Part shown: positions 15,580-55,703 of the stretch, one piece after another
How the letters are laid out: every line of letters starts with the position of its first letter
Numbering within the stretch: the stretch's first letter is position 1
NCBI RefSeq assembly: GCF_025602895.1
Contig: NW_026516267.1
Coordinates: forward strand, 124,001 to 188,000
Direction of reading: 5' to 3'
Length of the DNA stretch: 64,000 bases
Source of the DNA: Polychytrium aggregatum
Taxonomy: Eukaryota > Chytridiomycota > Chytridiomycetes > Polychytriales
Notes under the pieces: generated by a model
Told to the model about the DNA's origin: nothing
What the model saw: the letters and a program-made list of their open reading frames with translations, nothing else
Databases searched by the model: none
Program-made: the position numbers and the translations under genes

Positions 15580-17214
15580 ATGAGACTCTCCAGCATCGTC
15601 CTTGCCCTCGTTGGCGCCAGCGCCGCTCTGGCCTCCCCTGCCCGCAACTGCAAACCCTGGACCGCTGGTGTCGAGCTCGCCACCGGCGACTGTGTTGACT
15701 TTGTACGTTGCACGGACACATCACCGATCTCGGGCCGGCGTTGGTTTCCACAGCGTTCCGTCCGCAAGTGCGCATGTCGCTGACTTGGGCCGCTGGCTGC
15801 TGCCGAATGCCCATGCTCCCACCCCATCGCTTGCTGTAGATGCTGCCCTGCCTAATCCTTCTCTGCCTTTAACACACACTATTGCACGCTGCAACAGAAC
15901 GGTCAGTCGTGGTCTGTTCTCCAGCCCCACCTCGCCGAGGGCGCTCCTTCGACCGACAGCACTCGGTTTGCTCAGCTGGTCAACATCCAGGCCCGCCAGC
16001 ACAAGGTCTTGCAGCCCAAGAAGCCTGCGTCGAAAACAACCAAGGCCAAGAAGACGACTACCACCAAGCCCGCCAAAACCAAGACCACCAAGACCAAGGC
16101 CACCAAGACCAAGAAGACCAAGACTACCACCACCACCACCACCACCACCACCACCACCACCACCACTACCACCGCCAAGGCCACCACCAAGACCACCAAG
16201 GCCACCTCGAGCGTTTCCACTCCCACGTCCCTGCCCGTCTCTGGAAAGCTCTTTGCCCCCTACGTCGATGTCGGTCTCTGGCCCCCCTACGACCTGGCCG
16301 CTGCCTCGACTGCCACCGGTGTCCGTGTCTTCACTCTGGCCTTTGTCGTCTCCCAGGGCGGCAAGCCCTATGTCGCCGGCTATCCCCTTGAGCAGCAGTG
16401 GTTCGACGACAAGGTCCAGGCCCTTCGTGCTGTTGGCGGCGATATCATCCTCAGTTTCGGCGGCGCCGTCGGTGTCGAGCTCGCCCACGACATCACCGAC
16501 GCCAACCAGCTCAAGACCACCTACTATTCTACCATTGATCAGTTCAACGCCACCTACATCGACTTTGACATCGAAGGCGGTGCCGTTGCCGATACCTCTG
16601 CCATCGACCGTCGCAATGCCGTCCTCGCCACCATCCAGAAGGAACGTCCCCACATCAAGGTCTCGTACACCCTGCCTGTCCTCCCCACCGGCCTCGACAA
16701 CAACGCCATCTACCTCCTGACCTCGGCCGTCAAAGCCGGCGTCAACATCGACTCGATCAACATCATGACCATGGACTTTGGCAGCTACAGCGCCCCCAAC
16801 GGTGCCACCGGCATGGGTGGTAAGTCTCGGAGCGAACCCGCCGCCTGTTGTCGCTATTTGCGTGCCATATCTGGATGAATGCTGCTCGCTTTGCTGTCCA
16901 TGCACTCAACTCTCCTCAACTTGCCACCGCCCCTCTTCTCAGACTACTCCATCAGCTCGGCCAAGTCCACCTATGCCCAGGCCAAGCAGGCTGGCGTTGC
17001 CAACCCTTCGATCGCCATCACCCCCATGATCGGCGTCAACGACCTGAAGGATGAGATCTTCACCCTCGCCAATGCTCAGGAGGTTCTTACCTTTGCCCAG
17101 CAGACTTCCTACATCAACGGCATCCGCATGTGGAGCAGCAACCGCGATAACGTTGGCGCCTCCGGCATCACCCAGGCCCAGTACGACTTTAGCAAGATCT
17201 TCAATAAGCTCTGA
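15580..17214 (+). CDS. secreted GH18 chitinase with N-terminal chitin-binding module
   Basis: Three exons: 15580-15702, 15898-16819 and 16943-17214, giving 438 aa. A signal peptide (MRLSSIVLALVGASAALA) leads into a CBM5/12-like module: WTAGVELATGDCV, then NGQSWSVLQPH across the first intron. Next is a Lys/Thr-rich linker with an ACC-encoded poly-Thr run, probably O-glycosylated, then a glycoside hydrolase 18 barrel. The active-site strand is YIDFDIEG, giving the D-x-D-x-E catalytic signature, and the preceding strand DIILSFGGAVG is also typical. The enzyme should cleave beta-1,4-GlcNAc in chitin outside the cell or in the wall. The catalytic domain is of the compact kind lacking the small insertion domain. 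Roles could be wall remodelling or feeding on chitin; the sequence does not say which. Confidence 0.9.
16121..16173 (+). repeat. ACC trinucleotide tract inside the chitinase linker
   Basis: In-frame ACC/ACT repeat encoding a poly-Thr run of about 16 residues. It is a likely length-polymorphic site that would change linker length without frameshift. Confidence 0.9.
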
Positions 17215-17350
17215 GCAAATCGCGAGCGTCTCTAACTTGACTCGTCTTGGCTGCACAAACCTCCACTTTTCTCAAATCTCATCCGTCCTCCATCACTCGT
17301 CTTTCGTTCCTATTCTGCTGAGACTCGACTACCTCCGCCCGTTTCCCTAC

Positions 17351-17580
17351 AAGCAAAGCCACAAGAAATAAAACAGATCACTTTGGCAGCCTCCGAGTGA
17401 AGACCGCCGGTCGCTCTCCGATCTCCACAATCGACCTGCATACTGTGATCATGTTGCGCGCCGCATTGACGTCGCGATTCCACACTGTCCGGCGAATGGT
17501 CATGGCCAGCGCGCGATAACATTGGGTAACAAAATATTCGATGAATGGTCAAAATCCCGGGTGTCCCGTTTTTTATTGGA
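17351..17580 (-). pseudogene. Fanzor/TnpB-like nuclease C-terminal remnant
   Basis: On the minus strand, 17397-17545 stays open for about 48 codons and ends in TGA. It contains WNRDVNAARNM, the RuvC-III motif (R-D-x-N-A-A-x-N) seen at the C-terminus of TnpB and of eukaryotic Fanzor proteins, followed by a short basic tail (TRRLPK). A stop lies directly upstream in this frame and there is no recognisable N-terminal part, so this is a truncated relic and cannot encode a working nuclease. Part of it (DNA and the tail TRRLPK) recurs at 55.5 kb. It lies 3' to the chitinase gene on the opposite strand. The family call rests on this short motif and the copy comparison only. Confidence 0.6.
17367..17372 (+). 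terminator. AATAAA polyadenylation signal of the chitinase gene
   Basis: AATAAA about 155 bases after the chitinase stop. It lies inside the sequence shared with the second mobile-element remnant at 55.5 kb, so the signal may have been supplied by the remnant. Confidence 0.45.
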
Positions 17581-18358
17581 TTGCCTGTAAAAGACGTGCT
17601 CCCCCCCCCTAGACCCTCGTATCTCGTCCACGATCCTTGGCCGGACCTTCCCACCCACCCTCTAATTTCCAAGGGTCTCATTTCTCTTGCCGCCATTTCT
17701 GGTCTATGCCGACCAACCACACCGCTACTGGGCTTGATGTCCGAGCGATTCGGTCGTATTTTTATGCTGCCTGCCTGCCCTTGTCCTGTCCGTACGGTCT
17801 TGGGAATATACAAATACAGATCTTCGAAGAATGACGACAACAAGCCCGCAGAGATTCAGGCTCATCGAGTAACCCCACTTGAGCTTACAGAGCATTGTGA
17901 CAGAAGCGGTAGTTGATGTGAGGCACACTCAGGAACACTATTTCTCGCGGCCAGTCCGGTCTTATGTTGGTGGGCATGACCAGGGCCACGACCAGGGCCA
18001 CGACCAGCGAGTCTCCGCAAATGCAGACACTCCAAGTCAGGACAAGAGGCCATGCCTGGAATCAGGGAGGAAGACGCAAAGGGCAGAATCGGTGTATCTC
18101 ACAACGGCCAATCGATGCCGCCCAGCCAGACCGATCAACATCATTCAATCCACACAAGACTGTATGTCTGTGCGGTGGTGATTCATTGCGCCCAAATCAG
18201 TGGTGCCCTCCCCCAATTTTACCATCGCTGCGGACCGAGTTGGCATCAAGCCTCTTCAACAACAATCACCCGACCGCCCGAGGCGAACACGATCAGCGCA
18301 CTCCTTCGCAGCTAACCTCCAACAACCATCCCTCTTCCCCTCCCCTCCACTCGCTGCA
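17581..18358. other. intergenic, upstream of LRR gene
   Basis: No supported gene. It contains a short GACCAGGGCCAC direct repeat near 17975-18007. Confidence 0.5.
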
Positions 18359-29676: not shown

Positions 29677-29745
29677 TTGTGGATGTGGATGTGGATGTGG
29701 ATGTGGATGTGGATGTGGATGTGGATGTGGATGTGGATGTGGATG
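29677..29745. repeat. hexamer array (GTGGAT)
   Basis: About eleven units of GTGGAT on the plus strand. A related hexamer array on the other strand is at 47160-47222. Confidence 0.92.
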
Positions 29746-47063: not shown

Positions 47064-47451
47064 CGAGGCGGAAAGAGGCGAAAGGTGGGATTGATGGAGT
47101 TATTGTCTGACATCTGGAGTGGAGATGCCGGATGACGGAACGAGGATCGATCGGCCAGATCCAGATCCAGATCCACATCCACATCCACATCCACATCCAC
47201 ATCCACATCCACATCCACATCCAGCGGTAATGGCATGCTCGGGGTGGTATCTGCTGCAGGCGGCTTTTTGAAGGGGGATGAAGCTGTGGCCTCACCTTCG
47301 GAGGCAGACATGGCTGTTCAGGTGAAGGGCGGCAGATGCAGGGCAAGGTGATCCGAGCGATCTGGCGGGCGGGTTGGGCGACAAGAACGGAGGCCGCGGG
47401 GCTGTCGCTCTCGCTGCTGCAGCCCAGATCGCATCTGCCGCAACCTGCACG
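47064..47451. promoter_or_regulatory. divergent promoter between THOC7 and deneddylase gene
   Basis: A 388-base bidirectional spacer carrying the hexamer array at 47160-47222. No other gene fits here. Confidence 0.5.
47160..47222. repeat. hexamer array (CCACAT)
   Basis: About ten units of ATCCAC preceded by three ATCCAG units. Read on the minus strand it is GTGGAT, the same hexamer as at 29677-29745. Confidence 0.92.
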
Positions 47452-54547: not shown

Positions 54548-55409
54548 ATGAAGCTCCAGTCACTGCTGTGGTGCTATTTGATTGCCTGCTCGCTTGAGCA
54601 TCAAGGTATGCGCATACGGCGAAATCGCCCTGCTTCTGCGCTGTGGCGAGATGGACGACGGCAGGGTACAGTAGCATTGGGCTGAATACATCCAGTTCGG
54701 AGCCTGCACCGTGCAGCCGGAAGGAGAAAGCGATCGGGTTCCACAACCGAGGGACGCTAATGGAAGGCAATAACTTGTCCAAATACCCATTTTCGTCAAA
54801 CGACAGTGGTGCTGGCGATGCCCGCAATGAACCCACCAGGCATACCAGCCCCGACATCTTCTCAATCCCACAACTCCCACAGCGGCCCGGGACTGTGGCC
54901 GCCTGGTGTCGACGCTGGCCAGAGCGACAACACTGACCAGGGCGGCAACGCCAACCAAGATGGCGGCACTATCCAGCGCCGAAACACCGGCGACCATCTT
55001 CCTCAGCACATGCGAGCGATCCGAAGCATCGCCGAGGCCCATTCGGGCAAGGGCGTCGCCGCCGGCGATGCTGCTTCGGGGCCGTCGCTGGTCGGTAGAA
55101 TCCTCGCGTTTCCACGCCAGGTGGCCGACCCGGTTGTGCAATTTGTGAAGGGCAAGATCGGCAGTGTGCAGCCTCTGGGCCACCGGGATGTGGTTCACGG
55201 CATAAAGGTCGACAGGGTTCTCAAGAGAGCTGATTCAGGTGGGTGGCTCGCACCAAACGCTGTTCCTGGTGAGCGCAGGACAGACGGGGGGTGAGCGAGC
55301 GGGTGAAGGGGTCCTTTTGCAAGCCCCGTCGATCCGGACTGACAATCTGCACTCGTACCTGCTTTTAGAGAAGGTTTCGGCCGGCCATCTTGAAGCGTTT
55401 CCAAAATGA
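54548..55409 (+). CDS. small secreted protein candidate
   Basis: Three exons: 54548-54605, 54807-55238 and 55369-55409, giving 176 aa. A hydrophobic N-terminus (MKLQSLLWCYLIACSLEHQ then VVLAMPA across the first intron) looks like a signal peptide or anchor. The mature part is first Pro/Ser/Asn/Gly-rich and low-complexity, then a more ordered stretch (MRAIRSIAEAHSGKG, GRILAFPRQVADPVVQFVKG). There are almost no cysteines, so it is not a typical cysteine-rich effector. I recognise no family. The stop codon at 55407 falls at the edge of sequence shared with mobile-element remnants, so the last exon may derive from the element. The splice sites are canonical and phases agree, but this is a hand-built model with no homology support. 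Confidence 0.45.
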
Positions 55410-55580
55410 AACGGGACACCCCGTTTTTAACCATGATAGTAGTTTTTTCTGTGACCTGAATACACCCACACACTCATCGCAATCATGGCCAAACACAGCA
55501 CCCTCGATTTCCGCATCGCTGCACTGCGACCGGTGGTGGTCACTCGGAGGCTACCAAAGTGATCTGTTCTATTTCTTATG
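55401..55580 (+). pseudogene. mobile-element remnant sharing the 3' end of the Fanzor-like relic
   Basis: On the plus strand, AACGGGACACCC at 55413 and, about 130 bases later, a stretch ending TRRLPK-stop then TGATCTGTTCTATTTCTTAT. The minus-strand relic at 17.35-17.58 kb has the same two parts in the same order. The DNA from ACTCGGAGGCT to TGTTCTATTTC differs at only a few positions. The RuvC-III motif is not visible in this copy, so it is deleted or diverged. Confidence 0.55.
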
Positions 55581-55703
55581 GCATAGCTAGACGCATGCCA
55601 TCGCATGCTACGCCGATAAATGCATGTCCCATTTCTCCCTGAATACCGTGTAGCTGGCGCCGTATCTAGTTCCTCCCTCGCCTTCCCCCCCCCCGATTTG
55701 CAG

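Follow-up and report, generated by a model that had tools for sequence, protein, structure and literature searches.

The feature at 17350-17587 on the minus strand of the window, the 64,000-nt stretch of Polychytrium aggregatum DNA analysed here, is almost certainly a non-autonomous, internally deleted derivative of a TA-flanked inverted-repeat transposon that encodes both a mariner-type DDE transposase and a Fanzor. We refer to such short derivatives as minis.

At the core of the feature is a 56-codon frame (17378-17548, minus strand; PFIEYFVTQCYRALAMTIRRTVWNRDVNAARNM...RRLPK) with a stop codon at either end, which carries the motif WNRDVNAARNM and is present as the preliminary description had reported it. 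Pfam returns only a sub-threshold TNB match for the fragment (PF07282, E=0.1, 13.2 bits). The genome (64.7 Mb, 418 contigs) was searched with this frame, and 150 of the 1250 candidates were scored, so that the counts are lower bounds: matches occur at many places, at least nine of them at 100% identity, the window included. Among the same scored candidates, open frames as long as 861 aa terminate in a match to its last 38-41 residues, mostly at 93% identity (range 90-97%). Given this recurrence, the 56-aa frame is not a product of chance. Because the matches are of two kinds, near-identical 56-aa frames and C-terminal-only matches within long frames, the fragment consists of two parts.

The origin of these two parts is given by a comparison of twenty short loci with ten fetched full-length loci, in which a complete mini measures about 0.31 kb. 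On a 313-nt reference, whose length includes an initial T+TA and a final TA, positions 1-100 correspond to the left end of a larger element; its Fanzor gene end, 3' region and right end make up positions 98-313, and the two segments overlap by GCC. The parent contributes about 97 nt on the left, which run in frame into the final codons of the Fanzor gene. Within the 56-aa frame, the upstream portion, PFIEYFVTQCYRALAMTIR, corresponds to the beginning of the transposase frame and is not Fanzor sequence. Since the two parent segments are joined in phase, the 56-aa frame represents a transposase start followed by the last Fanzor codons. The features of the window are as follows:

17350-17587, minus strand: mini transposon whose right end is lost (reference positions 4-241; 241/241 identical to the copy on contig C146, including T+TA)
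17588-17589, no strand: target TA on the left side of the element (contig C143 has one TA in its empty site, 359/359 nt)
17348-17349, no strand: target TA at the right, broken end
17590, minus strand: T before the TA, giving TTA, the candidate TAM (T in 54/57 canonical distinct insertions)
17491-17587, minus strand: left-end segment with the left inverted repeat and the transposase frame start (98-99% to full-element left ends)
17491-17493, minus strand: deletion junction, GCC common to both parent segments (junction 51 times in the genome, control 0)
17378-17493, minus strand: 3' end of the Fanzor coding sequence with RuvC-III motif and stop (144 nt, 17350-17493, identical to a full element)
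17378-17503, minus strand: 41-aa in-frame fusion that opens at the transposase ATG and closes at the Fanzor stop, a predicted frame only
17350-17377, minus strand: what is left of the 3' region, corresponding to the beginning of the putative guide RNA (the following 70 bp, including the right inverted repeat, are gone)
55396-55652, plus strand: member of a second, independent mini family (left boundary approximate; junction 102 times in the genome, control 0)

The parent element measures 3.4-3.8 kb at the nine of ten loci where both ends were located by script. It corresponds to a Tc1/mariner-type transposon in its DDE transposase (Pfam DDE_3, E=1.4e-21) and its TA target duplication, the latter being read from the single TA in the empty site of the window insertion and from the TA at both ends of canonical copies. 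An element of the IS607 (serine recombinase) type was ruled out, as a DDE transposase and a TA duplication are found instead. The second parent gene encodes a Fanzor of about 800 aa, and an 809-aa frame exceeds the Pfam cut-off for PF07282 (E=6.7e-9, 36.2 bits vs 26.3). The original assignment of the motif to the RuvC-III end of a Fanzor is supported. The claim that this genome carries Fanzor elements is likewise supported by open full-length frames, and the intact paralogues that had been proposed as a check, aligning at both the C-terminus and the 3' flank, are found in the genome.

The identity of the parent protein as a Fanzor was examined through several features. The signature published for Fanzors, D-X(125-275)-[TS][TS]xx-C4 zinc finger-X(5-50)-RD (PMC3627910), occurs in 25 of the 26 parent frames; the 26th, at L076, was scored false where the script picked an earlier TSxxC. 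All 26 frames contain GIDPG, and DPG at RuvC-I is given as a Fanzor feature in the published description (PMC10711439). A profile of five frames has a sole match in the PDB, the S. punctatus Fanzor 8gkh, which is weak (E=0.072) and covers the last ~50 residues, and the sole match of a single parent sequence is LaTranC, also weak (E=0.67). Viral relatives were considered as well; three stretches fit a pattern and none was confirmed. Across 26 loci selected by an open Fanzor frame, dN/dS is 0.35 for the Fanzor (26 frames) and 0.44 for the transposase (22 frames). The transposase frame spans 66-310 aa in 22 of the 26 full copies, reaches at least 290 aa in ten, and is short or missing in many.

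With up to two mismatches, the deletion junction of the mini is found 51 times in the genome, and a 16-nt word from the right end occurs 371 times with one mismatch allowed, both with a control count of 0. The 51 minis form a multi-copy family without a complete gene, having both ends in common with an autonomous-type parent. One element of the preliminary description therefore had to be given up: the feature had been read as a single decayed 3' end of a Fanzor gene, whereas it is a defined deletion element in many copies, with a transposase start as the upstream part of its frame. The truncated right end of the window copy is what a single decayed end would lead one to expect, but this reading is already refuted by a junction that recurs in 51 copies, with element ends to either side, and we give it practically no chance; the 51 copies also rule out random decay of one Fanzor 3' end. 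Splicing was rejected as the origin of the deletion, no GT-AG being seen at the junction by eye.

The second mini of the window has a different transposase start (MAKHSTLDFRIAALR, identified by resemblance), in frame with the last Fanzor codons for a total of 25 aa, and its right end is of the same kind as that of the first family. At L031 and L032 (about 2050-2110), a diverged Fanzor C-terminus (WDRDINASRNM) directly adjoins a mini, which hints at another Fanzor family. Next to the first mini, the neighbouring “chitinase” frame (15856-16878, plus strand) carries a long threonine run and a GH18 match below the Pfam cut-off (E=1.6e-4, 21.9 bits vs 29.6), and the frame that follows it (16879-17214) has no Pfam match.

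When joined at one TA, the flanks of the window copy match contig C143 over 359/359 bases, representing an empty site. The first 19,999 of the 45,808 bases of this contig are collinear with window positions 12682-32849 at 97-99.7% identity, with differences in repeat length, and the element is cleanly absent. Given this near-identical contig with its empty site, the window insertion is polymorphic between two contigs, which are alleles or duplicates. Short tandem repeats with a 6-nt period, at 29678-29745 and 47155-47223 of the window, have many matches on C143 and are longer there.

The window copy is without the last 70 bp of the element and is joined at a TG beside the right TA; of its two inverted repeats, the right one is missing. 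This loss is private to it among the 51 copies, and L061, an old copy, has another, unrecognised right end. A copy that lacks both the right inverted repeat and the greater part of the right-end RNA should be immobile and have no guide, and the window copy is probably dead. Its end loss may have arisen by cutting at the right end and rejoining via the TG.

The right end is the same within one substitution in 78 of 80 copies (49/51 minis and 29/29 full copies), the exceptions being the window copy and L061, at whose right ends no left-flank bases were found. A consensus fold was derived from 11 sequences, namely ten hand-picked from the 51 distinct right ends and the second mini of the window. 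In this fold, 13 cells are changed on both sides, compared with 5.5 in shuffles (0/500 as high), and its covariation score of 0.248 exceeds those of the shuffles (0.166) and the slid controls (at most 0.099). Two further measures lie near the shuffles (pair types, 11 vs 11.1; pairs with two-sided change, 5 vs 3.3, 36/500), and single right-end sequences fold unremarkably (z of -1.42, +1.01 and -2.63). As the right-end sequences are related, the fold provides support for a structured RNA and not proof of one.

To describe the insertion junctions, minis were selected by the inner junction and full copies by the Fanzor C-terminus. After removal of 4 copies without an end and 16 sharing flanks, the 89 located copies represent 69 distinct insertions (38 minis, 31 full). 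Flanks were assigned by hand for L009, L045 and L079, and the L096/L097 pair was dropped because its left end is cut off at a contig end. At the 57 canonical insertions, T precedes the left TA in 54 (minis 28/30, full copies 26/27; background 23%), and the first base to the right of the element has no matching bias (A11 C18 G14 T14). A symmetric TA preference would bias both sides, whereas the bias is seen here on the left only.

Deviant left ends were found at 12 of the 69 distinct insertions. In nine of the 69, a scar count that leaves out L045 because its right flank resembles a terminal repeat, the element begins not with its usual left-end bases but with 1-10 bases copied from the start of the right flank of that very insertion. 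Seven of the deviants (L013, L016, L018, L046, L065, L072 and L075) display TA together with three or more bases from their own right flank, and this seven-match score was reached in 0 of 20,000 permutations of the right flanks. L054 and L102 carry one or two right-flank bases, which could be point mutations, and the deviant left ends of L015, L059 and L088 do not match their own right flanks. A five-base match is also reached at three of the 57 canonical loci (L026, L045 and L058). TTA is present at eight of the nine scarred insertions, L018 having ATA. At six of the nine (L013, L018, L046, L054, L072 and L102), the incoming right-flank bases equal in number the element bases they displace; the exchanged stretch is one base shorter at L016, one longer at L065 and three longer at L075. 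Mirror tails, with left-flank bases at right ends, were seen at none of the right ends examined, from which nine end pairs located partly via their right ends are excluded. L026, L070 and L097 share one right flank (365/365 nt between L026 and L070, 102/102 with L097), and the left flanks of L026 and L070 differ.

Elements of different size occupy the same site on different contigs. The joined flanks of 20 insertions yielded no empty site among the 20 candidates scored per query set, and a second contig with both flanks was found for nine of the 20, the status of paired contigs as alleles or duplicates being judged from 122 nt of flank only. At L003, L013, L035 and L065, the mini stands opposite a 3.6-3.7 kb element (contigs C301, C223, C398 and C312), and at L002 the mini lies on C362 and an element of about 1.1 kb at C168:195435-196546; L016, L046, L072 and L075 have the same size on both contigs. 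Open frames of 136-137 aa at several C-terminal matches suggest that the ~1.1 kb size class, a third one, is a family.

Mini and full copy differ at 4 positions at L003, 5 at L013, 1 at L065 and 12 at L035, with the outermost left end common to each pair and the L013 scar present on both contigs. In three of these four, but not L003, a variant beside the junction is common to minis elsewhere. L015 and L057, which are one site, also differ beside the junction. Such inner differences between minis and full copies fit gene conversion.

Taken as a whole, these sequence comparisons are probably best explained by a mini derivative spread by transposase, a right end that keeps the guide, copy-back by Fanzor, and gene conversion. 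The mini would have arisen by deletion at the shared GCC and then spread with transposase from full copies. Intact minis would retain the right end, the expected location of the Fanzor guide RNA; the guide would correspond to the right flank, and the left TTA to the candidate TAM. For S. punctatus Fanzor, the published account gives a cut 16-21 nt inside the guide-matching flank and a CATA TAM, with a conserved CA upstream of the left repeat (PMC10432273). With a cut 16-21 nt into the flank, the left broken end would comprise the left flank, TTA and some right-flank bases.

On an empty allele, Fanzor would cut inside the right flank, and the element would be copied in from the occupied allele. 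In a minority of cases, the left broken end, still with a few right-flank bases, would be extended untrimmed, and these bases would replace the first bases of the element; the scar would be equal in length when the tail pairs in register on the occupied allele. This part of the explanation, in which Fanzor cuts empty alleles beside TTA inside the guide flank and the copy-back of full and mini elements leaves the left-end scars, is more tentative, a serious possibility that stops somewhat short of being probable. Minis and full copies may in addition swap inner sequence by gene conversion. The window copy would no longer be able to take part, since it has lost its right inverted repeat and retains no more than the beginning of the putative guide RNA.

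The main rival, which we consider rather unlikely, holds that the minis are ordinary MITE-like elements moved by the transposase alone and that Fanzor plays no part. A DDE transposase and TA duplications are indeed present, and the T before the TA could be a target preference of an asymmetric transposase complex, an oriented preference being possible since the two inverted repeats differ in sequence. The scars would then result from a one-ended strand transfer that starts with the right end and leaves the left end to be repaired via microhomology, and microhomology is found at several of them. However, this rival does not account well for the sidedness of the tails, present at 9/69 left ends with no mirror tails at right ends, or for the equal exchanged length in 6/9, which end joining does not predict. 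It is less likely still, and in our view improbable, that one and the same internal deletion recurs in full copies and produces minis where these stand, without spread or exchange. Formation in place would be consistent with the presence of a mini and a full element at one insertion site (4/20 sites tested) and with L065, where the mini and the full allele have one base difference only. It is opposed by the 4, 5 and 12 differences at L003, L013 and L035, by the junction-side variant common with minis elsewhere at L013, L035 and L065, and by the low likelihood that a 3.3-kb deletion recurred many times at a single 3-nt overlap.

Ordinary Tc1/mariner MITEs are short internal-deletion derivatives with terminal repeats and a TA duplication. 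The minis are like them in all of these respects and unlike them in keeping the 3' end of a nuclease gene and a presumed guide-RNA end. Mariner elements with Fanzor1 (PMC3627910), Fanzor1 with DDE transposases (PMC10711439) and ghost Fanzor elements (PMC10432273) appear in published accounts. Similarly to the minis, the ghost Spu-1 elements of Spizellomyces punctatus are described as having many copies, element ends and no Fanzor gene, a right end that resembles the guide-RNA region of full loci, and conserved bases left of the left repeat (PMC10432273). As described there, ghost Spu-1 elements are ~550 nt long, with no transposase identified inside the family's repeats (PMC10432273), whereas the minis here are 0.31 kb, contain an in-frame transposase-Fanzor fusion and have a parent with its own DDE transposase.

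The parent is like PGv-1, described as combining a transposase and Fanzor1 in one TA-flanked inverted-repeat element. PGv-1 is, in its description, single-copy with a third, endonuclease gene, whereas the element here has many near-identical copies and mini derivatives. The copy-back proposed here also resembles the logic proposed for cut-and-copy retention of bacterial insertion sequences by TnpB, in which an empty site would be cut by the nuclease and the element put back by repair (PMC10432273). That case concerns bacteria and other transposases, whereas ours concerns a eukaryotic DDE element and is read from junctions only. In the literature searched, which lay mostly outside subscription journals and bioRxiv, no report was found of a transposase-Fanzor fusion mini, of size switching at one site or of one-sided scars.

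In 2023, the biological role of Fanzor in its hosts was stated to be unknown (PMC10432273). If the reading of the scars as copy-back by Fanzor is true, Fanzor would serve as the factor by which a eukaryotic cut-and-paste transposon homes and is retained, and the minis would exploit it in trans, supplying only their own guide RNA. Near-identical elements with transposase and Fanzor, minis with a presumed guide-RNA end, a candidate TAM and one-sided scars make this homing hypothesis testable by allele comparison and one purified nuclease.
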